DNA of 39,868 bases from a bacterium (GTDB lineage Bacteria > JAHJDO01): assembly GCA_018812485.1 (NCBI GenBank), contig JAHJDO010000137.1, positions 1-39,868 on the forward strand. Direction: 5' to 3'. Positions 1-23,600 of the stretch are shown here, piece after piece. The position numbers and the translations under genes were made by a program. The notes beneath the pieces were generated by a model. It did no database searches. It was not told where the DNA came from and saw nothing but the letters and a program-made list of their open reading frames with translations. How positions within the stretch are numbered: position 1 is the stretch's first letter; each line of letters begins with the position of its first letter.

Positions 1-456
1 CCAAACCACCCTTCCTTGGTCTTTGGGAAAATTTGGGCCATCAAATTCACCAAACATCTTCGTATAGTCAATCCCGGAAAATCCACGTAAGAATTGATCT
101 GAGACTGAAAAATACTGAGGGGTGGTAGCCATCATAGTTGAAAAAGGTAGTGGCAGACAATGCGCTTTCTTAATCACACACTCTCCTGTTTCATTAAATT
201 TCCATACCCTCTCCCCTTTCTTAACTTCTCTTAGGAATCCGGAAGGCACCTTTTTATAGAGAAGAAGATCGCCTGTCTTATTAAGGCCAATACCTACCAA
301 ATTATCACTAAAAGAAATCTTATCCACTGAGAAATAATTATTTCCAGTCGACTTCTTTAATTTTTCTCCAGCAAAAAATTTTCCATCCTTTATTGAAGTA
401 TCAAAAACTGGTATCCCTCGATAGGACTTCCCAGATTTAAAATTAATTTTTTTCAT
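1..456 (-). CDS. 5' part of an unrecognised gene (C-terminus outside the window)
   Basis: An ATG at 454-456 opens 152 codons without a stop, running off the left edge, so only the N-terminus is present. A good ribosome binding site (GGAGG, reading 466 to 461) lies just upstream and fixes the start. The protein begins MKKINFKSGKSYRG, has no signal peptide or membrane helix, and is a basic, mixed alpha/beta-looking soluble sequence with the stretch GEFDGPNFPKDQG near the visible end. I do not recognise the family. The start lies only 11 bases after the stop of the outer-membrane-type gene at 468-1268, and its binding site fills that gap. The two are therefore probably co-transcribed, which is the only hint about its role. 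Confidence 0.7.
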   Translation of the reverse strand, partial: MKKINFKSGKSYRGIPVFDTSIKDGKFFAGEKLKKSTGNNYFSVDKISFSDNLVGIGLNKTGDLLLYKKVPSGFLREVKKGERVWKFNETGECVIKKAHCLPLPFSTMMATTPQYFSVSDQFLRGFSGIDYTKMFGEFDGPNFPKDQGRVVW

Positions 457-467
457 TTGATCCTCCG

Positions 468-1268
468 TTAAAGTCGTGCCGTAAACTTAACACCATATTC
501 TATAGAACTGTTCTCTGGCTCATATCCATATCCAACAATAACTCCCGAATATGTAACAGGCTGTGTTTCTGACTGCTCGATATCCCAGTATCTTATAAAA
601 GGAGATACCAGAAAATCCATTTTTTCACTCTTTTTTTCAAATTCCACAGAACCTCTCAAACCATACCCCTCATTCTGGTCATTTTCAAGATTGCCAACGC
701 CAGCAATGGCATCACCAATATGACTTATTTGTCTCCCCTTCCAGAAATGGTCGTATTCTAATGTTATTCCTATGAACCATCCGTTATTCATTTCATTAAC
801 TACTTCTATACCTATTGGACTATAATAATAATTTGATTCCCTTTCATAGCCCTTTGCACCTGTTGACGTAGTCATTCCAGCGGAATCATCATTCAAATAT
901 CTATAGCCGACCCCTAGCTAGGGTATAATAGTAGTTGCTTTTGAAAAACCAAAAACATATCCTCCTAGCTGTCTAACTTCAATAATATAATCATCTATAT
1001 TATCCAATGTCCCTGAATTTTCATAATCTACCTGTCCGTAACTAAATCTAGCTTCTGCCCGCAACATATGTTTATTAGCACGATAAGTATAAGAACCATG
1101 AAGCCCATACATCATACCTTCTTCTTCCATCACTCCTGGCTCATCATAAGTAATATGCGATATCTCAATCCCCAAATCGAATGTATGCTCCTTTGATGGT
1201 TCCGCAAAACTATCCATTGCTGTCAAAAATACAATACACACTACTACTATTAACAACTTCTTCATCAC
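468..1268 (-). pseudogene. Outer-membrane beta-barrel-like protein, split by an in-frame TAG
   Basis: Two reading frames in the same phase, 918-1268 and 468-917, together make one protein of about 265 residues. The first half starts at GTG 1268 or ATG 1265 after an AGGAG site. It carries a signal peptide (MMKKLLIVVVCIVFLTAM, with a likely cut after DSFA). The mature part alternates aromatic and polar residues in short strands, as in small outer-membrane barrels. A TAG at 918-920 interrupts it, and the next codons read LGVGYRYLNDDS, a strand typical of the same protein, so nothing is missing except one residue. TAG differs by one base from a Tyr codon, which would give the natural-looking sequence PYLGVGYRYL. 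Either this is a nonsense mutation, or it is a base-call or assembly error in an intact gene. The specific family and ligand are unknown. The gene follows the glycosidase operon and seems to have its own promoter. Confidence 0.65.
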
Positions 1269-1292
1269 TTTCTCCTCACAATAAAATACAAA

Positions 1293-1322
1293 TTTGTAAA
1301 TCTCTTATTTCTATCTTGTCAA
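1293..1322 (-). promoter_or_regulatory. Candidate sigma70-type promoter for the outer-membrane-type gene
   Basis: On the minus strand there is a perfect TTGACA (1322-1317), and 17-18 bases downstream a moderate -10 element (TTACAA or TACAAA, 1299-1293). This sits about 25 bases before the GTG/ATG start at 1268/1265. A perfect TATAAT also occurs at 1328-1323, but it lacks a well-placed -35. The 11-base string containing TTGACA occurs again inside the end of the GH57 gene (1353-1363), so part of the match may be coincidental. Confidence 0.4.
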
Positions 1323-1331
1323 ATTATACTA

Positions 1332-2549
1332 TTAATTTAATCTGTTATTTTTTATCTTGTCAAGTTCTGCTACTATTTTTTTTGCTTCATCAAGGTGGTA
1401 GCGACAGTATTTTACATTGTTTTCACCAGGCCTAAAAGGTGGGAGAGGATAACGACCATCAGCACTTTCAGCCTGAACGAGATGCCACCAGGCCTTAAGG
1501 AGTTTTTCTCTATCCACCTCACTCTCAAGTTCTTTTTCTGCATCCTCGATCATCTTACCAATTTCACAGCAAGATTTATTAAGATTCTTCGCATCTTCTG
1601 TCCCATCCCATTGTGAACATCTGCCATGGTGCCAGCTAAGCCCATCTTTAATTTTAATAATCCCATCCCTCGGTGGAAATCTATGGACTGCTTCAGAAAT
1701 TGAGATAAAATTCCCTCTTTTCCCTAGATAATCTATTATCTCGCCTAATCTATCGAAAGTATAAGGGGCGGGTTCGAAAACCCTATCAGGTCCCATCTCC
1801 TGAAGATTAAACCAACCAGTAGTACCAAGATATTCAGCATCATTAGCATATATAACTAAGTATCCTTCACCTTTAGAATAATAATCAAGGCAATTAGTCA
1901 ATTCTTTGTAAGATAGGTCATTCTGTAAATACTTTAGAACCCTCATACTAATTCTATCACTACGCATTATCCCTTTAAGTCTCTCATTCACTCTAATAGG
2001 AAAATGGAGATCTTTATCATCTGGGTCGATCTTTAAGTATTTATCAATCACTTGAGGTTTTTTGGCATAGGTCCGAGGTATAAATATATTCTCTCTAGTC
2101 TGAACATAAGAATCAAAATCACAGATAAGAAAATCAAAACCTGCTTCCTCAAACATCCTTGGCACATCTTGTCTCCACCCACATTCAGGAATCCATCCTA
2201 CACGTGGTGTACATCCTACCCAATTCTTCCAACTCTGGCAGCTAAACTTCAAGCTATTTAACCCATGAGAATACGGAAAATTTGCCAAGATACTGTGGGC
2301 ATAAGGCCCTGAGACTAGCTCACAATTTCTATTAATACTTCTCCTCAATCTATCAGGGGTTTTTGGATATGTGCTACATAGGTAATCTAAAGTAAACCCC
2401 GACATCTCCAGGCACCATTTTGTCTCAGGATATCTTGAGTCGAAAAAATTTATTAATTTAAGATAAGATTCTTCACAAAGCAGGTTATATTTATGCGGGA
2501 ACAAAAGACCATGATTGAGATTAGAATGAAAAATTAATATATAATCCAT
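1332..2549 (-). CDS. Glycoside hydrolase family 57-like protein (GH57)
   Basis: A 405-residue protein without a signal peptide, so presumably cytoplasmic. The N-terminus (MDYILIFHSNLNHGLLFP) and the motif VGWIPECGW, with Glu122 as candidate nucleophile, are typical of the GH57 (beta/alpha)7 barrel. The segment VIYANDAEYLG places Asp237 where the family has its acid/base Asp. GH57 enzymes are retaining alpha-glycosidases, transferases or branching enzymes acting on alpha-glucans or alpha-galactosides. The exact activity cannot be read from the sequence. At about 405 residues it is near the short end for the family and has little beyond the catalytic region. The gene starts 3 bases after the stop of the GH94 gene and so is translated as part of that operon, as its last enzyme. 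Confidence 0.75.
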   Translation of the reverse strand: MDYILIFHSNLNHGLLFPHKYNLLCEESYLKLINFFDSRYPETKWCLEMSGFTLDYLCSTYPKTPDRLRRSINRNCELVSGPYAHSILANFPYSHGLNSLKFSCQSWKNWVGCTPRVGWIPECGWRQDVPRMFEEAGFDFLICDFDSYVQTRENIFIPRTYAKKPQVIDKYLKIDPDDKDLHFPIRVNERLKGIMRSDRISMRVLKYLQNDLSYKELTNCLDYYSKGEGYLVIYANDAEYLGTTGWFNLQEMGPDRVFEPAPYTFDRLGEIIDYLGKRGNFISISEAVHRFPPRDGIIKIKDGLSWHHGRCSQWDGTEDAKNLNKSCCEIGKMIEDAEKELESEVDREKLLKAWWHLVQAESADGRYPLPPFRPGENNVKYCRYHLDEAKKIVAELDKIKNNRLN

Positions 2550-2552
2550 TTA

Positions 2553-4862
2553 CTACCCCATAATTACTTCTATTTGGTGATTTTTGCCGTCTGCAAAAGG
2601 GGTAATCGGTCTGACTGGATCAACCTCCTCACCATCTACTTTCAATCTTTTAATTCCAGTTTCAACTCGTTCTGGATTATTAATATTAATATCATAAATT
2701 GCCTTTCTATAGTTTCTCACCATCTTACAAGAGGGCCAACTAGAAGGAATACATGGATTAATCAAGAGTCCATCATAAGTACGTCTTACCCCAAACATCC
2801 ACTCAGTTACTGCTTGAAAGATCCAACCACATGAACCTGTTATCCAACTATACTCTATTCTTCCTGGAGAGGTCTTATGTGAAGGTCCGTAGTAACCGTT
2901 GGGAAACACATAAGGCACAGCTGTATTGGAAGGATTATTTGGATTTTCCGGAAGGATTGCACGATAAACAGAGTATGCCTTATCTCCTTTATTAGCAAGT
3001 AGATAGGCTATCATTAAAAAGGCATTACCATGACAGTAAACAGTCCCATTCTCACATATCCCTGGTTCTAAGTTTGTCAACCTGCCTATATGCGGATCAT
3101 ATTTTGTATAAACAGGTGTATTAAGTAAAAAACCATATCCAGAGTCAAGATATTTTTCAACAGAGGCAAGGCATTTCTCTTGCCGCTCTTGTGTCGCAAT
3201 CCCACTCATGATAGCCCAACTTTGCATGTTAAGAAAAATCTTACCCTCCTCGCAATCTTTTGAACCAATAGCCCTACCATTATCATCAAAAGCACATACA
3301 TACCATCCTCCATTCCATGCGTCTCTATTTAAGGCATCTTTCACTTCTCTATAAATCTTATCCATCTCTTCTGCAATACTCTTTCTATTTAATCTCTTAG
3401 CTAACTCTCTAAGGAGCATTGCTGAACGGCAAAGGGCCATAGAAAGCCAGACGCTCGTGCCTTTACCAGCCTTACCAACAGAAGTCAAAGAGTCATTCCA
3501 ATCTCCATATCTAATTAAACAAAGCCCCTTCTCTCCTCTATCTTCGTATAACTTCCTGAGAGCACGAACCATATGCTCAAGGACTGAAGCCGTCCCTTCA
3601 TCATAGAAAGGAACATCTATCTCTAAAAGCCCGAAGTCACCACTTTCTTTGATATATTCTGTAATGGTCGAAACCATCCACTGTGCACTATCTGAATATT
3701 TCATTTTGTCAACTGGAGCCCATCCTCTAAGAGCAAACCCATCGCTATATTGATAGCAAAGCGCATCTAAAATATCTTTCTTAGCACGGTCGAGATCAAA
3801 TGTAATAACTCCTTGTGCATGCTGGAGGATATCCCGATAACCTTTTATTCCCCATCTTACCCACGTAGCACCATAAGAAACCTGTTGCTTGTTCCAGATA
3901 TTAGTAATTCTGTTCAACTCTTCATCCGGAGAGTCTATAGAAATAGGACTAAATTTCTTATTGCGCTCCTCTTTTAACATCTTGAACTCTTCCTCAATCT
4001 TCTGAGTATCAAGATATCTATCAATCAAGCGCCTTGCTTCTTCTGTAGGATTATCTACATCAGTAACTCCGACGATAAAATTAAAGACATTTTCCTCTTT
4101 CCCCTTCAGAGAGAATTTATTCTGCAATACGCCAACAATAGGTTCTCCTGTCCCAATACTATTTAAACATCTGCCCTCAGAGACAACCTGTGGATTAGTT
4201 AATCGGCGATACGTACCCAGAAATGTACGACGGCTTGCATCAAAACCAAAAGGCAAAAAATCTCCGGAGATAAAACCTGCATATTTTGAGTGAGGAAGGC
4301 CCTCTGCCCTCTTCCTAGCAATAATACCTTTGATCTCTGGATAGAAATGACCGCTCATAAACATTAAATGTCCATAAGTACGATAACCAGCTAAAGAAAG
4401 TTCTGTATAAGTAAATAAACTGATGTTTCTCTTATTATTACCTAAATTCCTCACTTTAAGAGTCCAGAGTTCTAATGGTTCATTTCCCAACGGGACAAAA
4501 ATACGATATTCCACCTCAATTTTATCGGTAGTGTTTTCAATTACAGTATAACCAAGGCCATGACGGCAAAGATACTTATCGTACTTCTTCTGCACAGGAT
4601 CCCAGCCTACATTCCAGTATTCACCACTCTCATCGTCTCGCAAATATATAAGGCGACTATCTTGGGGCTGGTTGTGAGCACCGAAAATTACATGGGTAGC
4701 CCAACCTTCATCTGTCTGATACCGACTATATCCTTTGCCGAGTTGATCAATATAAGTATAGTAGACATCATTCCACAAGAAATTATCCCAGGGTCTAGGC
4801 GTATCGGGCCTTGTTATGATATATTCTTTATTCTTATCGTCAAAATATCCGAATTTGCTCAT
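2553..4862 (-). CDS. Disaccharide phosphorylase, glycoside hydrolase family 94
   Basis: This 769-residue protein has the full-length GH94 layout: an N-terminal beta-sandwich, a helical linker and an (alpha/alpha)6 barrel. The start (FGYFDDKNKEYIITRPDTP, residues 4-22) is the hallmark opening of cellobiose and chitobiose phosphorylases. YGDWNDSL (about 452-459) holds the conserved catalytic Asp. YCHGNAF and WITGSCGW match the phosphate- and sugar-binding loops of the barrel. There is no signal peptide. Such enzymes split a beta-linked disaccharide with inorganic phosphate, giving a sugar-1-phosphate and saving ATP. Whether the substrate is cellobiose-, chitobiose-, laminaribiose- or mannose-type is not decidable here. 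Its ATG overlaps the TGA of the GH42 gene (ATGA, 4862-4859), so the two are translationally coupled and likely act on the same imported sugar. Confidence 0.88.
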   Translation of the reverse strand: MSKFGYFDDKNKEYIITRPDTPRPWDNFLWNDVYYTYIDQLGKGYSRYQTDEGWATHVIFGAHNQPQDSRLIYLRDDESGEYWNVGWDPVQKKYDKYLCRHGLGYTVIENTTDKIEVEYRIFVPLGNEPLELWTLKVRNLGNNKRNISLFTYTELSLAGYRTYGHLMFMSGHFYPEIKGIIARKRAEGLPHSKYAGFISGDFLPFGFDASRRTFLGTYRRLTNPQVVSEGRCLNSIGTGEPIVGVLQNKFSLKGKEENVFNFIVGVTDVDNPTEEARRLIDRYLDTQKIEEEFKMLKEERNKKFSPISIDSPDEELNRITNIWNKQQVSYGATWVRWGIKGYRDILQHAQGVITFDLDRAKKDILDALCYQYSDGFALRGWAPVDKMKYSDSAQWMVSTITEYIKESGDFGLLEIDVPFYDEGTASVLEHMVRALRKLYEDRGEKGLCLIRYGDWNDSLTSVGKAGKGTSVWLSMALCRSAMLLRELAKRLNRKSIAEEMDKIYREVKDALNRDAWNGGWYVCAFDDNGRAIGSKDCEEGKIFLNMQSWAIMSGIATQERQEKCLASVEKYLDSGYGFLLNTPVYTKYDPHIGRLTNLEPGICENGTVYCHGNAFLMIAYLLANKGDKAYSVYRAILPENPNNPSNTAVPYVFPNGYYGPSHKTSPGRIEYSWITGSCGWIFQAVTEWMFGVRRTYDGLLINPCIPSSWPSCKMVRNYRKAIYDININNPERVETGIKRLKVDGEEVDPVRPITPFADGKNHQIEVIMG

Positions 4863-7003
4863 TTTAATAAATCAAATACCCTGATTTCTTCGGGGAGAAG
4901 TGAAATCTCTCCTTTCAGGCCATACTTCTCAGAAGTAAGCCTTACCTTCTTTCCGTTAAAGAGATCCTCCATCTCTGAAAAACCCGCAATGGGTAAGTGA
5001 AACCCTGTTGTTATCCGTCTCTTCTCAAGGTTTGTCACAATTACCCACCCTTCATCTTTTTTATTATTAGAGATAAGGTCTAAACGAACTTTACTTTTTC
5101 CATTTATTTTAGGGAACTTGCATATACTTCCAATTTTTGCGAGACTTACAATCAATCTTTCATTCGTCTCATTTCTAAATTTAAAGTAATCATATCCAAT
5201 AAATGAACCTATTAAGATGGCCTTACCTTTGCCGTAATTTGAAAACGTAATAGCAGGTTCTTTCCCTTCTTTAAATATTGCTAAAACTTTTGCACCCTTT
5301 AAAATAAACGTCTCCTCACAGAGCATCCCATTAATTTTCTCTCCCTTTTTGATATCGGATAAATCTCTATCCATAATGATAGTTGCTCTTTCGCCTGAAA
5401 AATCCCGTCTAGCCCTAACCAACCCCTGCTCCACACCAAAGACCTCTATAAAACCAGCGCCTGGAATTTTGTATCTGAAAGAACCGTCTTTTGTATCCAA
5501 CGCAGCGAAATAACTTTCCCCGATAAGGGTCCCGCCGTTTCGAACCCATTCTTTTATAATCGCTAAACTTTGCTCATCAAGATACATCGGTACAGGCACA
5601 TACAATACTGAATAGTTATTAAGCTCTCCTTTATTGATTTCAAGGGTATGCAGAATATCGACATTGAAGTTAGCCTGATAGAGGGCATTATGTAAACCAA
5701 CCATAGAGTCATGATAAAAATATTCTGTGCCATAAGAGCACCATGAAAATATCTGGTTTTCTGGTGAGAATAATATCGCGATATCTGTTTTTAATCTTTT
5801 AAGGCTTAACACCTTATCTTTATTCTTCTGAAGTAACTTACAGCATCTAGAGGCAGTCTCTAACCATGGGGTAGAAGTACCATCAAGCTTAGTTAAACCC
5901 CATGCTGGAGACTCCCTACCAAGTGTCTCTGGTCGATACTGCCAGTATTGAAATCCGCTAAAACCAGCTGCTAAAGGAGTAAAAACTGTACGTTTGATCT
6001 CTCCATCTTTCAGGACCCTTGGAAAAACCATGGTCATACCGGGCATAGCATGAATTTCAACGCTCCAAACAGGTTTATGCTTTGCACAGCAACGTAAAAT
6101 GTCACAAGCGAAAGGATCATTTACTAATGTCACACCATGTACATCGCCAGGCTCAGCCATTCTCCATAGGTCGACTCCTGTTGACATCAAATCGAAATAC
6201 TTCATATCGTGAGTATGGCACATAACTAGATGTCTCTTATCTAGTTTCCTTATAAGCTGCATCTGCTCAAGATTTACCTCTGCCATCCTTTCGATAAAAA
6301 ACATCCTCCAGTCAATCATTGAAACAAACATATCTCGGCTACGTGGAATTTCAATTTCTTCCCAATTTTGATAATTTTTATGCCAACATTTATTCAACCC
6401 ACTAAGGCCTTTGTATTTTTTCTTAAGCCATTCTTTGAAAGCTGTCCTGCAACTCTCACAATAGCACAACAAAAACTCAATATTTCTATAGTCTTTCCCA
6501 ACAACCCGGTGAATAGAATGTCCTAGGTCCGGTTCACCCCAGCTATTCCAAATATATAATGCCTTGTGGCCTCGATATCTTTTTACAGTTTCTGCAAGGA
6601 ACTCCATCCTGATTTCCATACTCTTTCTATGATTGATGCAACCACCTCCTACACCGCCAATCTGTCTTGCAGCAAATTCAACAGGGCCTACGTATCTTCC
6701 ATAGATAGTTTCAAGCCGACTCTCAGGAAATTGATTAAATATCCAAGCCGGGACTGAATCATATTTTGGGCTCATGTTGACTTTAATATCGTATTTGATA
6801 GCCAGATCCATAAGTCTATCAATATCTTCAAAATAATATTTCCCTGCCTTCGGATTACTCCATCGCCACATAACCCAAATTTCAATCATATTAAAACCAT
6901 ACCTTTTTATATTCTTAAAATCTTTTTCCCATTCTGAAGGCTTAGGAGTAGGAACACGATAATAATGAGCACCAAAAGGTATGATATTTATCGAATGTTT
7001 CAT
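4859..7003 (-). CDS. Beta-galactosidase-type glycosidase, family GH42
   Basis: 714 residues, typical of GH42: a catalytic TIM barrel, then a flavodoxin-like trimerisation domain (about 400-620) and a short C-terminal beta domain. The acid/base Glu is E157 in NSWGEPD and the nucleophile is E316 in VWSVEIHAMPG. The Cys cluster C180, C182, C185 and C206 within CYCESC...LNKCW matches the zinc-binding insertion of GH42. It has no signal peptide, so it acts on imported sugar. The start is ATG at 7003 with a GGGGAG site upstream, 53 bases after the ROK gene. Its TGA stop overlaps the ATG of the GH94 gene. GH42 enzymes usually release terminal beta-galactose, but some members prefer other beta- or alpha-linked sugars, so substrate specificity is an inference. 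Confidence 0.88.
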   Translation of the reverse strand: MKHSINIIPFGAHYYRVPTPKPSEWEKDFKNIKRYGFNMIEIWVMWRWSNPKAGKYYFEDIDRLMDLAIKYDIKVNMSPKYDSVPAWIFNQFPESRLETIYGRYVGPVEFAARQIGGVGGGCINHRKSMEIRMEFLAETVKRYRGHKALYIWNSWGEPDLGHSIHRVVGKDYRNIEFLLCYCESCRTAFKEWLKKKYKGLSGLNKCWHKNYQNWEEIEIPRSRDMFVSMIDWRMFFIERMAEVNLEQMQLIRKLDKRHLVMCHTHDMKYFDLMSTGVDLWRMAEPGDVHGVTLVNDPFACDILRCCAKHKPVWSVEIHAMPGMTMVFPRVLKDGEIKRTVFTPLAAGFSGFQYWQYRPETLGRESPAWGLTKLDGTSTPWLETASRCCKLLQKNKDKVLSLKRLKTDIAILFSPENQIFSWCSYGTEYFYHDSMVGLHNALYQANFNVDILHTLEINKGELNNYSVLYVPVPMYLDEQSLAIIKEWVRNGGTLIGESYFAALDTKDGSFRYKIPGAGFIEVFGVEQGLVRARRDFSGERATIIMDRDLSDIKKGEKINGMLCEETFILKGAKVLAIFKEGKEPAITFSNYGKGKAILIGSFIGYDYFKFRNETNERLIVSLAKIGSICKFPKINGKSKVRLDLISNNKKDEGWVIVTNLEKRRITTGFHLPIAGFSEMEDLFNGKKVRLTSEKYGLKGEISLLPEEIRVFDLLK

Positions 7004-7056
7004 GATTTCAACTCCCCTATTTCATCACGGTTATGATATTTTCAGGAAAGTTTAAG

Positions 7057-8313
7057 CTATACATCTAGAAATACTTCTTGAATAACCCCGCTGGCACCTC
7101 CCAAAGCTACTGCCTTATTACCCAATCTGGAAGGAACAATCTTAACTATACGAAAAGCTTCTTCAAAGGCCCATTTAGCTACAGTTTCTTTTATAGGCTC
7201 TACTATAAAAGTGCCTGCTTCTTCTATTCCTCCACCTAAAACAACCATTTCAGGATTTAAGAAATTCACAAAAAATGCTATCTTGATACCCAGATTTACC
7301 CCTGCTTCTCTTAGCAAGTCAATAGCTAGCTTATCTCCTGCTTTTGCTGCCTTAACTACTGTCCTGAAGGTTACCATTTCTGACCTTCCCCCTGCCAAAG
7401 CAAGAATCTCTGATTCTTTTCCTTCCTTAATAGCTTGCTTAGCTTTATAAGAAAGACCCATATCTAACTCCCATCGCAATAGATAAAATAACTTCTCCTG
7501 TTCTTTTTCTGGAAGGCATTCAAATTCTGGATTGTGGATATTAACCTCTCCTGCAATCCCACTGCTACCTTTATATATCTGCCCATTGATCATAATGCCA
7601 CAACCGACCCCAGCGTACATATACAACATATTCTTTATGGTAGGGTCAAGGCCTAACCATTTTTCTCCAAAGGCAGCTATAGTAGCATCGTTCTCGATAA
7701 TAGTAGGGACGCCAAACTTATCTTCAAAAAGATCCTTAACAGCTATACAAATCGAGATATCCTTCACACCTCTTTCATTAGGCCATTTGATTTTTTGTCC
7801 AGGCACATCAATAATTCCAGGCACTCCTACACCAATCCCTTTTAGTTTTTTTACATCTAGTTTCGAATTTTCTAATACCTTACTCACTACCTCAACTAAA
7901 GAATAAATAGTTGATTCTCCGTTTTCAACCGATAGAGGACTGGTCGTGGTTGTAACTCCACTGAACCTATCTTGTCTCATCTCATAGAGGACATTTGATT
8001 CTAGATCTACAGCCACGCCAACTATGTCCATTATATTCAACCCAACTCCAATGACAAAACCAGCTTTCGGATTCAACTTTATCAAAGTCGGCCTACGTCC
8101 TCCGCTCGATTCGTCCAAACCGAGCTCTAACACTAATCCTTTCTCAATGTAATGACTAATGTAGTTTGACACAGTCACTATATTGATGCCTGTAACTTTC
8201 GAGATATCGGCCTTGGTAACGGATTCCTTCCTCCTAATCATCTCCAAAATAGAGAGATTCTTTCTTTCTCTGTCCGATAAAAAATCATTATCAATACGTA
8301 ACGACTCTTTCAT
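7057..8313 (-). CDS. ROK-family transcriptional regulator
   Basis: 418 residues. A winged helix-turn-helix (about 16-80, with VTKADISKVTGINIVTVS as the HTH and GGRRPTLIKL as the wing) is followed by the sugar-kinase-like ROK fold: the phosphate-loop-type GVGVPGIIDVPG (about 161-172), the ENDA motif with D209, and the glycine-rich GVGCGI (235-240). The zinc motif that normally follows (GH, then CxCGxxGC) is degraded here to AGEVNIH plus a single Cys, so this is more likely a sugar-sensing repressor or activator than a glucokinase. It lies between the transporter genes and the glycosidases and most simply controls that operon. The ATG at 8313 is preceded by a strong AAGGAGGG site. Confidence 0.88.
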   Translation of the reverse strand: MKESLRIDNDFLSDRERKNLSILEMIRRKESVTKADISKVTGINIVTVSNYISHYIEKGLVLELGLDESSGGRRPTLIKLNPKAGFVIGVGLNIMDIVGVAVDLESNVLYEMRQDRFSGVTTTTSPLSVENGESTIYSLVEVVSKVLENSKLDVKKLKGIGVGVPGIIDVPGQKIKWPNERGVKDISICIAVKDLFEDKFGVPTIIENDATIAAFGEKWLGLDPTIKNMLYMYAGVGCGIMINGQIYKGSSGIAGEVNIHNPEFECLPEKEQEKLFYLLRWELDMGLSYKAKQAIKEGKESEILALAGGRSEMVTFRTVVKAAKAGDKLAIDLLREAGVNLGIKIAFFVNFLNPEMVVLGGGIEEAGTFIVEPIKETVAKWAFEEAFRIVKIVPSRLGNKAVALGGASGVIQEVFLDV

Positions 8314-8385
8314 TTTTTTATTACCCTCCTTCTTGTTTTGAATTATTTCTACATTACAACAAAAATAACCTCTTTTGTGTGCAAT

Positions 8386-9237
8386 CTATGCTTTAAGCGC
8401 TCCAGCTGTAATCCCCTTAATAATATTCTTCTGCATGATCATATAAATTATAATCAGTGGAAGAGCTGCGATTGTCAAACCAGCCATAAGTAATGGATAA
8501 TTAGTTATATGTTGTCCTTGAAATGTCCAAAGTCCTACCTGAATCGGCAAGAGCTCTTCTTTACGCACAACAATTAATGCCAAAAGATACTCATTCCATA
8601 TTGTAAGAGAAGAGATTATTGCTACTGTCGCTAACGCTGGAGTTGCCAACGGTAACATTATGCGCCAGTATATACCCATTCGAGAACAACCGTCTATTCT
8701 CGCAGCATCTTCGAGGTCACGGGGGACTCCTTCGAAAAATCCTTTCAGGATAAAGATAGCCAATGGTAAACCTGCATTAATGTATGGGAGTATTAATCCA
8801 ATACGTGTATCAACTAACTGTAATCTAATCAGAAGGATATATAGGGGTATAAATGCCCCTGGGATTGGTATCATCATAGAAGCCAGAAATAAATAAAATA
8901 AAAGATTTCTTCCTCGAAATTGAAATCTGGCAAAAGCATAAGCTGCTAACGAAGCAAATAATAGAACCCCTGTAACAGCAGTAGTTGTATATATAAGACT
9001 ATTAAAAAAATAAGTACCAAATCTAGCCTGTTTCCAAGCAATTATGTAATTATTCCATTTAAAACTAGATGGAATTAAGCTCATATTTAAGAATACTTCA
9101 CTTTGAGATTTTAGCGAGGTTGAAAGCATCCACAAAAGAGGAAATAAACAGCTAACGGATACTAAACATAAAAAAGAGTGAATAATAAACTTTTCAACTA
9201 TTCTCTTGCTATTAATTCTTCTCGTAGCCATTTTCAA
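8386..9237 (-). CDS. ABC sugar transporter permease, MalG/UgpE type
   Basis: A 283-residue integral membrane protein with about six helices, the usual size for MalG-like permeases of the CUT1 carbohydrate family. The cytoplasmic loop EDAARIDGCSRMGIYWRIMLP (about 176-196) is the EAA motif that contacts the ATPase. The C-terminal SLTIWNEYLLALIVV is typical of MalG. It starts 12 bases after the stop of the MalF-type gene and pairs with it to form the channel. The ATPase is not encoded nearby, as is common for CUT1 systems that share an MsmK/UgpC-type subunit. Confidence 0.93.
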   Translation of the reverse strand: MKMATRRINSKRIVEKFIIHSFLCLVSVSCLFPLLWMLSTSLKSQSEVFLNMSLIPSSFKWNNYIIAWKQARFGTYFFNSLIYTTTAVTGVLLFASLAAYAFARFQFRGRNLLFYLFLASMMIPIPGAFIPLYILLIRLQLVDTRIGLILPYINAGLPLAIFILKGFFEGVPRDLEDAARIDGCSRMGIYWRIMLPLATPALATVAIISSLTIWNEYLLALIVVRKEELLPIQVGLWTFQGQHITNYPLLMAGLTIAALPLIIIYMIMQKNIIKGITAGALKA

Positions 9238-9249
9238 TCATCCTCTTTT

Positions 9250-10152
9250 TTACCTCCGTAATCTGCGCCTTGAACACTCCATCTGAAATATTGACAAAAT
9301 AAGCAGAAGCCCACCGAATACTATTGCCATAGCTGTACCGTATCCAAAATGATAGTAAGAGAAAGCTTCTTTGTAAATCCTCGTTATAGGGACCTCTGTA
9401 TGAAAACCCGGCCCACCTTGAGTCATCGCCATAATTAGGTCAAATATCTGCATTGTCCCCAATATAGTTAATACAGAAACAATAGTTGCCACGGGAACTA
9501 GCAGAGGTAAAGTTATATAACGAAATTGGTTCCAAGTGCCAGCGCCATCCACCTTAGCTGCTTCATAGAGATCCTCTGGTATTGTCTGTAATCCCGCTAG
9601 AAATAGAATAAATGCAAACCCGAATCCTCGCCAACAATGGGCCACAGCTACTGAAATAAGAGATGAGTTTGCCTCAGAGAGCCATGCCCGAACATGATTG
9701 CCTAATCCTATAATCCGCAGGATATGATTTAAGATTCCATAATTTCCATCGTATATCCAAAGCCAAATATACCCAACGACAATCAGAGATAACATAGGTG
9801 GCATAAAAAAGATAACCCGGTATATCGTTCGCCCATTCGTAATGCCACGATATAACAAGATAGCTAACAGTAATGCCAAACCATTCTGGAATGTAAGAGC
9901 GATAATGGAAACAATAGAGGCATTTAGTACTGAAGTCCACCAAATAGGGTTATTGAATATAATATCAATATAATTCTTTAGACCAACAAATTGCATATCC
10001 GGAGCAATACCATCCCACCTATAGAAACTAAGTTGAAAAGTCCTTAAAAAAGGATAAAGGCCGAATATCAAATATATGCTAAGAGCTGGTAACACAAAGA
10101 GATAGGAATTCCAGTTATGTCTGATATATCTGATTTTTTCCTTTTTCATCAC
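9250..10152 (-). CDS. ABC sugar transporter permease, MalF/UgpA type
   Basis: 300 residues, about six helices, with a short cytoplasmic N-terminus. The EAA loop is YEAAKVDGAGTWNQFRYITLP (about 196-216), and the MalF-like hallmark MAMTQGGPGFHTEV follows. The start may be GTG at 10152 or ATG at 10149. Both sit on the TGA stop of the binding-protein gene (TGATG arrangement), showing translational coupling. It forms the membrane channel with the MalG-type protein at 8386-9237 and receives sugar from the lipoprotein at 10149-11453. Confidence 0.93.
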   Translation of the reverse strand: MMKKEKIRYIRHNWNSYLFVLPALSIYLIFGLYPFLRTFQLSFYRWDGIAPDMQFVGLKNYIDIIFNNPIWWTSVLNASIVSIIALTFQNGLALLLAILLYRGITNGRTIYRVIFFMPPMLSLIVVGYIWLWIYDGNYGILNHILRIIGLGNHVRAWLSEANSSLISVAVAHCWRGFGFAFILFLAGLQTIPEDLYEAAKVDGAGTWNQFRYITLPLLVPVATIVSVLTILGTMQIFDLIMAMTQGGPGFHTEVPITRIYKEAFSYYHFGYGTAMAIVFGGLLLILSIFQMECSRRRLRR

Positions 10153-11453
10153 TCGAGTTTATCTTTTAGACGCTGTGCTTCTTCGAGAACTTTGATAGAG
10201 GTCTTCTCCCCGATAATTATTGATTGAATTCCTTTTCTTAAGACCTCTCTCACTTCATTTTTTTCTTCTACTTCTAAATCTGGTATAATCCTTTCCATGC
10301 CCTTGGCAAACTTTGCCAATACAGGTGAAAGTCCGTCTATCACATTTCTATTGGCAGACAGGGTATGGGCCTTTTCTACATATTCTATTTGTCGCTCCTT
10401 ATCCGTAAACCACTTTAAGAATTTTATGGCTTCTAGTTTCTGGGAAGATTTACCATTTACAGCAGCACAGATACCTGTACCACCAAACAAAAGCACCGGA
10501 TTCGCAGCCTCTGTATCTTGAGGGAAAGACATAACATCATATTCGAGGTCTGGGTTCATCTGGTAATATACATTCACAGCCCAAGATCCGTTCATCGCCA
10601 TGGCAGCCAGACCATTGGCGAAGGCTTGTTCTGACTGTTTGTTAGACATTATTGCTATCCCTTCTATAAACATCTCATTATCTCGCATCTCGACGAACTT
10701 ATCAAAAGCAGCCTCCCATTCTGGTGATACATATGACCTTTCACCTACCCAAGTAGCCCGCACATTATCTTCACCAAGAAAACTCCAGGCATAACTATTA
10801 AGAAACCACTCAGCAAGTCCTAAATCACCAAATCCAGCAGTAAAAGGGGCTATACCCTTAGCTCGTAATTTTCTACCCGCAGCAATAAACTCTTCCCATG
10901 TAGCAGGTGGATTCATTGGATCAAGTCCTGCTTTTTCAAAGAGTCTCTTATTATAGAATATTTGTATATTCATAACAGTCAACGGCACAGCATAAGTGCC
11001 GGGTATAACACCCCACTGATTTCCATCTTGGTAAGAGCCACGTTTTATTGCTTCTGGAAAAAATCTATCTTTCCATCCTTCTTCCATTTCGTCGGTTAGG
11101 TTAGATATATGTCCGGCATTTATATATCTAGCCAAAAATTCTCCTCAACCCCATACCCCAATAATATCTGGCAGGGTACTAGATAAAGCAGCTGCTTGCA
11201 ATTTATTTTTATAGAGATCCCCACTTGGAGAAGAGAGTACAAACTTCACTTTTACTCCGGTTTCCTCTTCATATTGATCAGCAAATTCTTCCAAGATCGA
11301 TTGCCTATCTGTCCACCAATGCCAGAATGTTATAAGAGGTTTCTTTTTTGCTCCAATTTCCTTATCTTTATCTTGACCACACCCAACGAACAATATGGGT
11401 CCCATAATAAACAGATAGATGACCAATATCCACTTTTTACAAGGATATACCAT
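10149..11453 (-). pseudogene. Extracellular solute-binding lipoprotein (CUT1 type), split by an in-frame TGA
   Basis: 11148-11453 and 10149-11144 are in the same phase and give a 434-residue binding protein, with one TGA (11147-11145) between them. The start is ATG at 11453 after GGAGG. The N-terminus is a lipoprotein signal (ILFVGCGQ, Cys as the lipid site; Phe at -3 is slightly off consensus). ITFWHWWTDR and LPDIIGVWG are typical of family-1 sugar-binding proteins. After the stop, GEFLARYINAGHISNLTDEM continues the same fold without a gap, followed by the usual WEEF...KLRAKGIAPF and AAMAMNGSWA segments. TGA is one base from GGA (Gly), which would restore the GG typical of this position. TGA is a true stop in neighbouring genes, so this is either a nonsense mutation or a sequence error. 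A TTG at 11135 could restart translation but without a signal peptide, so that product would not be exported. Confidence 0.8.
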
Positions 11454-11513
11454 CGCAAATTTCCTCCATTTAAAGTTCTGATTAAATCTAAATAACCCTC
11501 ATCTTTTTATATA

Positions 11514-11542
11514 GTTATAACAGTAACACCCCAATTTGTCAA
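11514..11542 (-). promoter_or_regulatory. Sigma70-type promoter of the sugar transport and hydrolysis operon
   Basis: On the minus strand there is a perfect TTGACA at 11542-11537, a 17-base spacer and TATAAC at 11519-11514, about 60 bases before the binding-protein ATG. The -10 sits inside the perfect palindrome GTTATAAC (11514-11521), which could be part of an operator for the ROK regulator encoded in the operon. That last point is inference only. Confidence 0.7.
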
Positions 11543-11573
11543 GTGCGAACACGCTCCATAAGAGAGATTGCTG

Positions 11574-11601
11574 AAAAAGTCATTACCGAGCAAGCGGGAA
11601 T
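11574..11601 (-). terminator. Hairpin plus T-run after the giant gene
   Basis: Seventeen bases past the TAA of the giant gene, ATTCCCG and CGGTAAT form a 7-bp stem with one mismatch around a 6-base loop (CTTGCT). After a 3-base gap comes TTTTT. This is a plausible though weak intrinsic terminator separating the giant gene from the sugar operon promoter 32 bases further on. The stem also resembles widespread repeats with ATTCCCG...CGGGAAT arms. Confidence 0.45.
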
Positions 11602-11617
11602 CTATATGTACAATGCA

Positions 11618-14600
11618 TTACAAGCACACTCTATTTTTTTTGTGTCCTTTTATGATTCCATCAAGCTCGTCACCTGTCCCCGAATTAATCTCTTCGCGCT
11701 GCATAAAAATCATAAGGCCGATAGCAAAAAGTGTCCCAATTAATAAAAGAGGTAAACTTTTAATTGACATCCCAGTAATCAACATCAGTCCAACCGTAGG
11801 GAATCCAACCCAAGGGAGAACTAGAGACGGGGCCCAATTTTCCCGTTGTAAATCCCCATGAGGAAATTGGGATGTGTCCCTGATTTTTCTGATTTTTAGA
11901 TAGCCTCTTCTAACTGCCAAATAACCTAAAATCAGTAACCCTCCTGCAACAACAAACGCACCAATCCCAACAATAACCCACAGCCCCTCATGAGAACCAA
12001 GCCATGATAAGGCTGGTTGTATACCTTGCGTAAAGAAGTCCTGCAAGGGACTCACTTGCGTCTCCCCTAAAAATCGACCTAGTCCACCAAACCCAAAGAA
12101 ACCTGCAGCTTGAACAACAGCTGGCCTGCCGCCAGTAGGAGATAAACCCTGTGCAGCAAAAAACTCTTCTCGTCCTGGGCATCCTTTTTCAGTGTCACCT
12201 CTGCAATCCAAGGATTTGCAATAAGGGCAGTTTATACGTTCTCTTCCTATAGGACCTAATCCCTCGATAGTTTCGAACGAAAACTGCCTTCCAGAAACCA
12301 CTGTGCCTTGCGCAACTTGTCCATCAGCAAGAAACATGCGTCGTCCAAGATCGCATATTTCAAAGTTCATCCCAGGTGGCATATTTTCATTTACTACTGT
12401 ATTTGAATCTATCTCACCAGATCTTTCTAATTGCTTAAATCTACCCAGTCGATCCAACCATGCTAAGGTAATCTCCTCAGATTTCATGCCTTGATAGATA
12501 TAGGTTCTTATAGTATCAATCAAATCCGGTTCGTCTTTACGTTGAAATAAAAACAACCAACAAGCGAAAGTAACTCTAGGCCTATCTCCTCTTTGTATAT
12601 CGTTATATTCGGTAATTCTATTTCTAATCGCCACTGCATATTCACAATACTTCTCTACGCCAACTTTACGCATCCAAGCACTCGGCGCAACGCTTAAAAC
12701 AAATGTTCTCTTCCCCTCTCCTGACCCTAATAATCTCCCTAAAGCTCTATCCGTTACAGAACCTGGTACAAATACAGCAGAAAATATAGTTTCTGGATTA
12801 AATAAATCTACAACATCACTCGCATCTGTATCATAAATAATATCGTAATAATCTACAAAAAAGTCATTCCTGTAGGTCATAACCTCTGGTGCTCCTACTT
12901 CATCTTTTGCCTGTTCAAGCCATATCCACGGCATAGAAACAACCCTAAAGGTGGCTGCCATGTCACAGTGGTCGCATTGACTAGAACATCCATCCGTAGC
13001 TACAACTCTACTCTGTTCTCTTCTTATTTCAGCTACTTTTACTTCTTTCTGCCTTATATTATCTTCATATATCTTCTTCCTTTCCCCTTCCAATAAAGGC
13101 ACAAACCACATAGCAGGAGGAAGCATAACTGTTTTTAATACATCTCCGAGCAGTTCAGTACGAGTGCTATAAGCATTAACATACTGATCCATAGATTCTG
13201 TCTGTACAGCCTTTTCAAGTAACCTTACGGCATTCTCTCCTTTGGTAGATAATGGTGCTTGATAACGCTTAATCATATCAAGTCTTGCTGCAATGGCAGC
13301 CTCAAGAAAACCCGAGAAGTTAGCAAATTGACTTTGTTCTTCTGCTGGAAATGCTATAATTCTCTTAATGGCAGTATTTATTGCTGCAGCCTCTTTTATA
13401 AACTCCTGGTAAAAGAACATCTTCTTAGACCAATCAAGATGCAATGAATCGTAGTTACCTTCTCTGCATTCACTGATTATTCTATTGGCAATATCATCAA
13501 TGGATCCTGGAATATCAGAGGCATCAGGTATGTCTCTATAAGGAGCTGGAATTTCCTCTGGTACACTGGTTGATAGTAATTCATCTGTCTGTCTGGCTAA
13601 GACCTCCTCAGGTGTCAAGCCTAGAACCATTGCGACAGCCCTGATAGTTTTTTCTTCGGTAATCTTAAAGACGTTTAGATAAGTGAACCGACGATCGTCA
13701 AGCTGGGTTTTAACTAAAGATTCAACGGCTTCAATAACACTCATACCCTCCTCTCCATCCACCAAAGCCAGGGCGCCCAGTGATACAGGAAGTCCTAAAT
13801 CTCGAACCATGTCTCGCGCTTCATCAAGACTTGGAAACAGTTCAGGTCTTTCTTCTAGTCTCTCAAAGAATACCTTAAGGTCATCAATAGCAGATGGGCC
13901 TCGTTCTTGTAAAAATTGCTCGTTAAGTTGATCTACGGGAAAATCTCCGCTTTCAAGGTTTTCCTTATCAATATGATACAGTGCAAGCATTAATAGAGTT
14001 GAGATGCCAACCTGCTCTCCATGAAGCATTTTTCTACCCTGTGTCTGAACCTCCATACTGTAGGCAACGCAGTGATCGCTTCCAGCCTTTGGCCTTGCAT
14101 TTCTCGCACGGCTCATAAGCGCTGATATTCGCATAGCAAGTCTCGCTGATTCTTCAATGCCTTTAGGAGTATTATCCTTAATGATAGTAGCAAGAGAGCT
14201 CAAATCTTCTAACACTACATGGGCTTCTTCAAATATAGCTCGCTCCTCCTCAGTCATCTCAGTAACGCCAAGATGAACCGCTAACATCCAATCGAGCAAC
14301 GCTACCCAACCACTGAATAAATCCCCAGCCCCTGCAATATTACCTCTCGGGTTAAGTCTCATTAAAGATGCATCAGCAATGACTTGTTCAGCTGCACCTG
14401 TCATATAACTAAACTGCCGGAAATCATCTCCCGACCCGTCACGTATTAGTATATTAGGAGTAAAAGGTGCATTCGTTGAAGTCGCAGTCACAATAAGATG
14501 AACATTGACTCCGAGTTTATGACCGATGACTTTCGACCAGTCACAAACCGTACCCATACCAATACCTACCACTAAAGGAGGTTTATCAGACTGACCACTA

Positions 14601-20600: not shown

Positions 20601-23600
20601 TCTAGTCGAATTTTCCCTCTTATACCAGAAGCGTAGTAACTTATCGATTTTAGTGCTATGTAATACGTTCTGGCTATTTCTTCATACCTTAATCCACGCA
20701 GGAATCCCTCGAGTATTTCTTGTTCCTTGGTTTCCAAAGGTGATTTTACCATTCCTAAAATACCTGCTTTGGTGAGCTTCTCCCGTGGTGAACCACCTTC
20801 CCAAAGAAGCTTATTGTTGAGGGTACCTAATATGAGGCTCAACGTTGTATATTCCAGACCTATTTCTTCTTTAAGTCGTTCATCAACCCATCCACGAAGG
20901 AGTCCAATAAATACCAGTCGCTCTTCTTGAGTAAGCTTTGCAGCTAAATACCCTGTAGCCACTAATGGATCGTAAGCAGAATCCGTCGAGCCAGGCGCCA
21001 CTCTACTACCATCCGCTCCAGACGTATCTTCAGTGAAAGCCCTATCTCCTACAACCATTGCCACTCCTATGGGTAAGGCAGTCAACACTGTACTGCCCAG
21101 CGACATCAAGGTAGGGCTGTTTATACCTATCAAAGCCAATCTTTCCAGCAACATCATAAGGAGAGAACTTACTGGTACAGTAAGAAATTCTGGAGCAAAC
21201 CATAGAATCAATATAACAAACGCCGTAATTAAAGATAGGGCGGGAACTACAAGCAAAAACGTAACTCGACTGACCCGTCTCAAAACAGTCGTGCACCGGT
21301 CAAATTTCTTTGATGCCGCATCGGGACCAAATAATATTTTCCCGATTCGATAAAAAATCGCAACACAAGACAATAGAAATGTAAGAACGCCTATGGATGC
21401 AATAAATGGCTGAATATTGGTAAGTGTAAAACTATATAGAAAAGCGCTAAAGTCAATAATATATGGGACAATAGGCTCGATAAGGAATAGCATTGCAGGT
21501 ATTGCCAGCCATAAACTCCATGGGAGAAAACGCATGGCTCGTTTAGATTTCTTCAGCGTTTCTTTTATTTCTTCTTCCGTATATGAGAAAAATGCCGTAT
21601 TTAATGCATTTTCTACGCTACCCAATAATTTCCTTATTAGTCTATCATCCTTAGAAACATTCTCACATATTTCATTTAATACCTTAATCTTTATACGTAG
21701 TTCATCCTTCTCTGCATTCATATTACGAACCGCTTTGATAGTATAGCGGTATATCAATCCAAGCGTGAGAACATAGTAACCTGTCAGTATAGCAACGAAG
21801 AAATTTCTGGCTGAAGGAGGAACCATGGAATATAACAAAAGGCCAATGCCCGTAAGAAATAAAGTGCGGATAGTAGACGGATGTCTAAGGAATGCTGAAA
21901 GCTTTTGGGAAATGATAGACATCAATATAGTGACGCCAAGCAAGCCCAACACCCCAATCCCAACCCAGTGTAAAGTAGTTAAGCTGCTCTTAAACTCACT
22001 AACAGTCTGCCAGATAGCCGAAAGATCCAACTGCTGTGGCACATACTGCGTCAGTCCTGATAAAATAGACCCGGAATCAAAACCAAAATTAAAATCAAGT
22101 TTAAAATCAGTGCGATTGAAGATATCGGTACCAAACATGTTTGTCAATCCACCCAGCGTAAGGCCAGCGAACAAACTAATAGGTTCATATTCATCCAAGG
22201 TCAGTTCCTCATACAGTTCTTCATCCTCACGAGGTTCCCTTTTTGCGCTATGCATGGATACTAATGGTAAAAGTGAAGGTACTATTGCTTCTTTATCTCT
22301 CAATTCCTTTTCTCGTCGTAACGTTTCAAGTCTCTGATTCAATGCTTCAACCTGAGGCGTGTTGCCTATAAGTATGGCTATTTTAATCATATGAGTAAGA
22401 ATATATATTTTTTGATCTATATCCTCCAATCCAAACTTATAGGCTACTGACCATGCGTATCTTGCTTCTGCTCGAATCTCTCGATCTAAAGATCCTAACT
22501 TATCAGGATGTTCAGGATATTGGTCTACTACCCAGTCTAAAAACTCAGTTATTCCCCCACCTGGACCTAAAAGATTATCAGGGATACTACCATCTTCTAT
22601 GGCCCGGTTAATCTTTTCAATCAGTAAAATACGGTCTTCCGCATAAAGAGAGATAAAAAGAATTTTCAATGCATCTATATCCCCTTCTGTTATAATATCT
22701 CCACCTTCATCTACCGGCCCAATAATCTGCCTCTTTTCTTTCAATCTCTTTACAATCTCAGCAAAATGCACTATATCAACTCCCCATTCACCTGTTACTG
22801 CTTGCGTTTTTATGTCTACTAAAGATAAAACCTCTTCTGCAGTCACTTTGATCTGGTTCTCTCTTAACCTAACCAAAGCATCTTTTAAATAGACAAATCC
22901 AATCTCCTTTACTAAAGATAAAAACTCTGTTTCAGTCACATAGAGATCTCTCTCTCTTAACTCATCCAAAGCATATTGAACAGGGACAAATCTACTCTCC
23001 TTTACAGCCAGCGCATTGACAAGTTCTCTGTTCAACTCCCATACTCTTCCTTCTCCCCCTGACCTTGCCACCCTCTTGGCGCTTAAAGCTCTTTGATTAT
23101 CTTTGTCAGTTAATAAATACGAGTGCAGTTTAGACCTACTCCAACCGAGTGTCTCGTGAAATGTTTCCACCACTTCGCGAAGACGCACTCTCTTCGCAGA
23201 TTCACTTGTTACCTCGTATGAAAAAACCCACCCTTTCCCCTCTTCTGGTATTTCAGCATCAAGGTCGCCTTGCCTTGCCCATCGCTGTACACTATCGAGT
23301 GCCCTATTTATGATTTCTGCATATTCAACATCAGTATGGTCTCTCTCCTCAACTTCTCGAATCGGAAGAAGCAACAATCCTTCACTGAGTCTTTCAGCCA
23401 TCTCTGGAGTAAACTGGCCTTCAAAGATGGCGTCCATAACATTAACTTTTTCCCCACCTGACTCTGTGATAATATATTGCCTAGGCTTCATTTTTCGTGT
23501 CGAGGCAAATAGCCATATCCCGCCACCGAGCAAGGCAGGTTTGAGAAAATCACTGATTGCATTAGCCTGGTTATGCGGTAAATTACCCGACAGGATAGAA

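Follow-up and report, generated by a model that had tools for sequence, protein, structure and literature searches.

A candidate operon for oligosaccharide import and phosphorolysis in an uncultured marine bacterium

In the Paenibacillus borealis cluster PBOR_28840-28865 a phosphorylase of glycoside hydrolase (GH) family 94 is encoded beside ATP-binding cassette transporter components, a binding protein and other carbohydrate enzymes (PMC8741936, available excerpt). Metagenome-assembled genomes (MAGs) of Omnitrophota from Ace Lake are described in the excerpted text of PMC8542988 as importing di- and oligosaccharides, from which hydrolysis and phosphorolysis release glucose and glucose 1-phosphate. 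Marinovum algicola pMaD2 (CP010857.1) displays a solute-binding protein gene followed by two permease genes, an ATPase gene and a GH42 gene. Here we describe a locus related to these systems on contig JAHJDO010000137.1 (39,868 nucleotides, termed the window), which is contig C137 of the MAG G000 (2.68 Mb, 172 contigs). Between positions 1332 and 11453 its minus strand encodes, in order from the binding protein, two CUT1 permeases, a ROK-family protein, a GH42-like enzyme (P0003), a GH94 phosphorylase (P0002, termed GH94a) and a short GH57 enzyme (P0001). These genes probably belong to an operon with which an uncultured marine bacterium imports and phosphorolyses oligosaccharides. We infer, as a reasonable reading, that the imported substrate is a mixed alpha/beta-linked oligosaccharide, which cannot be named from sequence.

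The gene content and coordinates of this region, as given in the first-pass annotation, are borne out by Pfam: each protein between 1332 and 11453 scores above the curated cut-off of its family, all genes lie on one strand, and the gaps from the binding protein to GH57 are -4, 12, 72, 53, -4 and 3 bases, with start and stop codons overlapping at the GH42-GH94a and binding protein-permease junctions. These open reading frames (ORFs) are probably real genes, judging by their length, their family matches and the catalytic residues that they conserve. The set is not complete at these limits, as had been assumed, since the run continues past 1332 with a beta-barrel gene (1268-468) and a second GH94 gene (GH94b, P0011), whose first 456 bases lie inside the window. 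Its continuation is found on contig JAHJHC010000041.1 (L065), assigned to 'Candidatus Omnitrophota bacterium isolate Modern_marine_glass_biofilm.mb.96' and belonging to a second MAG, G385. There the 957-residue GH94b is followed, on one strand and with gaps of 63 bases or less, by a 430-residue GH99-like protein, an 868-residue GH99-like protein with a CBM9-like domain, a TPR-repeat histidine kinase and a response regulator (named by eye). The downstream genes are also present on contig C19 of G000, where the start of GH94b is absent; GH94b is unbroken in L065. The whole same-strand run thus comprises 13 genes separated by -4 to 72 bases. Scans for promoters (46 hits against a mean of 37.7, standard deviation 6.6) and terminators (7 against 7.5) are close to chance, and Rfam returned no match at the gathering threshold. 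The features inside the window are as follows.

11145-11453, minus strand: solute-binding lipoprotein, N-terminal part, with a lipobox-like Cys by eye, ending at an in-frame TGA; intact in L065
10149-11135, minus strand: remainder of the solute-binding protein in the same frame (Pfam SBP_bac_8, 104.8 bits)
9250-10152, minus strand: CUT1 permease of MalF/UgpA type (BPD_transp_1 match)
8386-9237, minus strand: CUT1 permease of MalG/UgpE type (BPD_transp_1 match)
7057-8313, minus strand: ROK-family protein, probable regulator (Pfam ROK, 121.1 bits)
4859-7003, minus strand: GH42-like glycosidase P0003 (Pfam GH42, 147 bits), acid/base E157 and nucleophile E316
2553-4862, minus strand: GH94a, putative beta-glycoside phosphorylase P0002 (PF17167, 303.8 bits; PF06165, 174.4 bits), general acid D457
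1332-2549, minus strand: short GH57 enzyme P0001 (Pfam GH57, 60.8 bits), nucleophile E122 and acid D237
468-1268, minus strand: outer-membrane beta-barrel protein, with an in-frame TAG in the window assembly; intact in L065
1-456, minus strand: first 152 codons of GH94b (P0011; 957 residues in L065), laminaribiose-phosphorylase-like

The dedicated CUT1 importer and ROK regulator proposed in the first-pass annotation are both matched. The two permeases score 71.6 and 57.9 bits with BPD_transp_1, and the closest solved relatives of the binding protein are the sugar-binding proteins 4zza and NagB1 (E about 2e-21). Family models and solved relatives thus reveal the binding protein and two MalF/MalG-type permeases that define a CUT1 system, and neither MAG has a second match of the MalF/UgpA permease kind. 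G385 contains one MalK/MsmX-type ATPase (P0016), encoded outside any transporter operon, after grpE-, dnaK-, dnaJ- and accD-like genes (by eye); no permease or binding protein was recognized by eye in the 9.2 kb fetched around it. P0016 matches MsmX (6yir) with an E value of 9.1e-125, and other MalK-type ATPases match too. This points to a CUT1 importer that, in such a genome, would depend on an orphan ATPase. The ROK protein is probably a regulator, NagC/Mlc-like, with an N-terminal helix-turn-helix, although both relevant models stay below threshold (HTH_24, 20.8 bits against a cut-off of 21.9; HTH_27, 19.9 against 22.2) and the NagC model, at 118.9 bits, is far under its own cut-off. In the histidine kinase (L065:18896-20716), the TPR repeats are accompanied by a central part that is possibly carbohydrate-binding, as judged by eye.

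GH94, GH57 and GH42 proteins were placed by bit scores and residues, in place of trees with characterised sequences. GH94a contains both parts of the family, the N-terminal supersandwich (PF06165) and the catalytic domain (PF17167), and it is closest to cellobiose phosphorylase (428 bits) and chitobiose phosphorylase (409 bits). Residues R343, D344, W455, D457, Y609, H611 and T675 of GH94a correspond to the seven catalytic and subsite -1 residues of the solabiose phosphorylase PBOR_28850 (R342, D343, W454, D456, Y609, H611 and T676 in the excerpt of PMC8741936), the two sets being paired by motif and numbering and not by direct alignment. Because GH94a holds these seven residues, its donor side is likely to accommodate a beta-glucoside. 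GH94b has the laminaribiose phosphorylase 6ggy as best solved relative (E 5e-99, 335.9 bits; the next is at 1.5e-50 and 175.3 bits), and its general-acid motif ADWND aligns with that of 6ggy. The subsite -1 Arg-Asp pair is altered, reading GWRE in GH94b and GWRD in 6ggy; since Glu replaces Asp beside the subsite -1 Arg, GH94b is termed laminaribiose-phosphorylase-like and not laminaribiose phosphorylase. The two proteins are thus candidate phosphorolytic enzymes of predictably different linkage. The resemblance of GH94b to laminaribiose phosphorylase, the glucose-type subsite -1 conserved in GH94a and the marine biofilm origin of the near-identical contig would also fit an operon for a beta-glucan of laminarin type, where GH94a and GH94b are the main activities and GH57, GH42 and GH99-like proteins are accessory, acting on side branches. 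We consider this unlikely, as the locus proteins scanned include no GH16, GH17 or GH55 match and three proteins of alpha-acting families (GH57 and the two GH99-like) are left without explanation.

P0001 retains the GH57 machinery. The nucleophile E122 (strand beta4) and the proton donor D237 (strand beta7) are invariant in all five short-GH57 sequences aligned. At position 23 of the conserved sequence regions, Thr, Ser or Ala marks amylases, Lys 4-alpha-glucanotransferase, Leu branching enzyme and Phe alpha-galactosidase and related enzymes (PMC6037648, excerpt). All five short sequences display Tyr at this position, with numbering inferred from the Asp20 of that excerpt, and so fall outside every fingerprint it names. 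The clade therefore combines full catalytic machinery with none of the named specificity fingerprints. A single-sequence structure model of P0001 is unusable (mean predicted local distance difference test score 33.7). The distribution set comprised 385 genomes, of which 384 are other than the window's own. Full-length relatives of P0001 occur in four of the 384 (G210, 44% identity; G049, 34%; G166 and G019, 31%), the remaining GH57 matches scoring 54.1 bits or less and being nearly all partial and to ordinary GH57. No relatives were found on plasmids, or on viral contigs by a pattern scan that did not include the phage collection. As glycogen branching enzymes fall in GH57 (PMC6037648, excerpt) and any GH57 match is present in 116 of the 385 genomes, P0001 could alternatively be a branching or debranching enzyme in the turnover of a storage glycan (glycogen) or an envelope glycan, with no uptake. 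This reading is improbable: P0001 has Tyr where the branching enzymes of the same excerpt have Leu, the same bin has a separate longer GH57 match (a 766-residue frame) on contig C32, and in every lineage seen an importer component is encoded close to the short clade. On fingerprint and gene context, a storage role for the GH57 enzyme was set aside as unlikely.

P0003 had been called beta-galactosidase-type, of which the GH42 family match stands; the name is that of the family only, and with its best solved relative at E 4.3e-25 the protein is a divergent GH42-type enzyme. Its acid/base E157 and nucleophile E316 are conserved in 12 of the 13 sequences, the thirteenth, a second Marinovum enzyme, being unaligned at these positions. 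In clan GH-A an Asn directly precedes the acid/base. P0003 has Gly at this position, whereas four relatives have Ser or Glu and seven have Asn; because of the Gly, P0003 is termed GH42-like. A second GH42-like gene lies on contig C17 of the same bin (21477-23267; L099:8136-10283), adjoining the gene of a 1233-residue protein; its product shares 30% identity with P0003 and 85% with a GH42-like protein of the sister genome G003. The predicted cytoplasmic location of the three enzymes agrees with the lack of an evident signal sequence in GH57, GH94a and the GH42-like protein, and a signal sequence is apparent on the GH99-like protein with the CBM9-like domain, both judged by eye alone.

In the proposed pathway, the secreted GH99-like/CBM9 protein would trim a polysaccharide outside the cell and the fragments would pass the outer membrane through the beta-barrel. 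Uptake would then proceed through the lipoprotein and the CUT1 permeases, with energy from the lone MalK/MsmX-type ATPase, whose gene lies elsewhere. Once in the cytoplasm, the fragments are predicted to lose alpha-linked residues to the short GH57 and to the second GH99-like protein, and a terminal beta-linked hexose to the GH42-like enzyme. Phosphorolysis of beta-glucosyl links would then fall to GH94a and GH94b, one being cellobiose/solabiose-like and the other beta-1,3 laminaribiose-like, and would yield glucose 1-phosphate and save ATP. The ROK protein may sense a breakdown sugar, and the kinase and its response regulator may sense the polymer.

The neighbourhoods of the short GH57 relatives are consistent with this pathway. 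In each of the three other lineages a solute importer component is encoded no more than three genes away. A CUT1-type binding protein is encoded three genes upstream in G210, where a xylose-isomerase-like barrel is also upstream, and directly upstream in G166 and G019. The G166 neighbours further include a single protein that has both GH42 and CBM_4_9 domains, and a xylose-isomerase-like barrel (Pfam on G166, the G019 genes being 84-97% identical). In G049 the gene directly downstream encodes an SSF symporter, followed by a GH2 enzyme. Scoring at most two GH42 or GH94 candidates per genome, GH42 relatives at E 1e-8 are found in 36 and GH94 at 1e-40 in 79 of the 385 genomes. Close GH42 relatives occur in the genomes of three of four species with the short GH57 against seven of 380 without it (Fisher p 5e-5) and, by genus, in two of three against five of 321 (p 0.0012; two same-genus pairs collapsed, the window's own genus left out), both tests using cut-offs chosen after the data were seen. 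A further, tentative proposal, which we rate at less than an even chance, is that the short clade (core of about 400 residues) has a new specificity for just-imported oligosaccharides and is paired with divergent GH42-type enzymes, some of which have no clan GH-A Asn, the operon dismantling a heteropolysaccharide repeat of no known pathway and ending in two different GH94 phosphorolysis steps. Assays of these three soluble enzymes against a common set of oligosaccharides could uncover a GH57 activity and a glycan diet that are both new. No description of the short clade was found in the literature searched, mostly without full texts.

Several observations weigh against the import-and-phosphorolysis pathway. 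Among the matches reported for the 384 other genomes (for GH42 and GH94 at most two candidates per genome), no two of GH57, GH42 and GH94 lie near each other, the only shared contig being that of the single-contig genome G056, where GH42 and GH94 are about 0.78 Mb apart; this is in line with the first-pass annotation, which saw no obvious counterpart among known loci. In G210 the gene that overlaps the short GH57 encodes an M28 peptidase and not a glycosidase. The GH99-like assignment of P0012 and P0013 is based on E values of 2.5e-9 and 2.9e-10, the family matches scoring 51.9 and 62.3 bits. The active-site pair of GH99 is E-x-x-E; both proteins display D-x-x-E (WNDWNE and WNDFPE), with Asp at the first active-site Glu. 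In GH94a the subsite -1 Arg-Asp is immediately followed by QH; the three cellobiose phosphorylases shown carry QD there. The absence of an ATPase gene from the operon, already noted in the first-pass annotation, holds more widely: no MalK-type ATPase was found in G000, the window's own bin, or in four sister genomes (one of them 62% complete), and hence none lies in the window. An MsmK-like ATPase elsewhere in the genome, which the first-pass annotation suggested looking for, was found in G385 and not in G000. By numbering, P0016 (N77, R104, E110 and M154) keeps two of the four residues that matter in MsmX (D77, R104, E110 and K154; PMC7658222, excerpt). Finally, the binding protein, a single gene at 11453-10149, is cut in the window copy by a TGA into ORFs of 102 and 328 residues. 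The uniqueness of the combination among the matches reported could mean that unrelated genes share a promoter by chance, each enzyme having its own substrate. The overlapping starts and stops at the GH42-GH94a and binding protein-permease junctions argue against this, as does the repeated occurrence of the short GH57 beside importer components and GH42-type enzymes, and we regard a chance grouping as unlikely.

Two in-frame stops in the window copy, the TGA at 11145-11147 in the binding protein and a TAG at 918-920 in the barrel, might indicate a decaying locus with a dead importer. L065 is 99.976% identical to window positions 1-12549, with three differences over 12,549 bases, two of which are these stops. 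Both genes are intact in this contig, which otherwise differs at one position, and the three enzyme frames are open with their catalytic residues conserved, making decay very improbable. The stops fit strain variants or assembly error. Recoded stop codons were considered and rejected, as the two stops differ in kind and neither gene is interrupted in the near-identical contig.

One region of about 53-55 kb occurs in both MAGs, on contigs C137 and C19 of G000 and on contig C56 of G385. A 5.8-kb piece of contig C17 of G000 has no match in G385 and is 86% identical over 2.1 kb to a sister of G000, and the 3.2 kb around the accD-like gene of G385 are represented in G000 only by 69% identity over 420 bases and a 31-base piece. 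G000 and G385 are different species, and because they share the contig at least one bin probably holds it wrongly, barring recent transfer. The G000 bin is likely mixed, since one of its nine contigs compared (C160, L128) has 68.5% guanine plus cytosine and the others 35-41%; C160 is likely contamination. We tentatively favour G385 as the true host. G385 has the MalK/MsmX-type ATPase, which was not found in G000 and its four sisters, and its only P0006-type permease lies in this operon. The best relative of GH94a among the 384 genomes (best two candidates per genome) speaks against G385, being in G004, a sister of G000, at 41% identity. Codon usage is also slightly against G385: the operon is at a distance of 0.219 from the sampled G000 contigs and 0.265 from G385, and the giant gene described below (0.195 and 0.215) and the downstream genes (0.266 and 0.280) share this lean. 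Tetranucleotide z-scores place three of four pieces nearer G385 and one nearer G000, the G000 pool including the GC-rich contig. Taxonomic placement by composition was set aside as not decisive.

Two further genes flank the run. A giant ORF occupies 11618-39796 on the minus strand (9392 residues in the window, the frame staying open to the edge of the longer G385 contig), and its stop at 11618 lies 164 bases from the binding-protein gene. Pfam matches a DnaJ domain, ARMT1-like phosphatase stretches and several mid-protein LuxR/GerE helix-turn-helix stretches. According to the excerpt of PMC10066038, ORFs of giant size are frequent in Omnitrophota, a further point in favour of G385 as host. On the other side, just downstream of the response regulator, L062:9187-12993 encodes a 1268-residue protein with FG-GAP and PQQ-type propeller matches.

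Compared with the described systems, the P. borealis cluster resembles the locus in its GH94 enzyme, although the subsite +1 residues of PBOR_28850 and GH94a seem to differ when compared by numbering only. The P. borealis cluster further contains GH130 and GH26, and the passage describing it names no GH42, GH57, ROK or GH99-like protein (PMC8741936). The pMaD2 cluster, whose GH42 enzyme is 26% identical to P0003, includes an ATPase of its own as well as a second beta-galactosidase, and its annotated neighbours comprise neither GH94 nor GH57. A parallel in sugar flow is that of the Ace Lake Omnitrophota, for which the excerpt of PMC8542988 describes the same import and conversion as proposed here; GH42, GH94 and GH99 are absent as terms from its main text, supplements aside. 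No report of this enzyme combination was found in the literature searched, mostly without full texts, so that the combination is unreported there and the type of system is known. In contrast to the Ace Lake MAGs, which are said in that excerpt to be without enzymes for first depolymerisation, the locus described here encodes a GH99-like/CBM9 protein with an apparent signal sequence, and it provides a candidate pathway, self-contained and open to testing, for an uncultured lineage.

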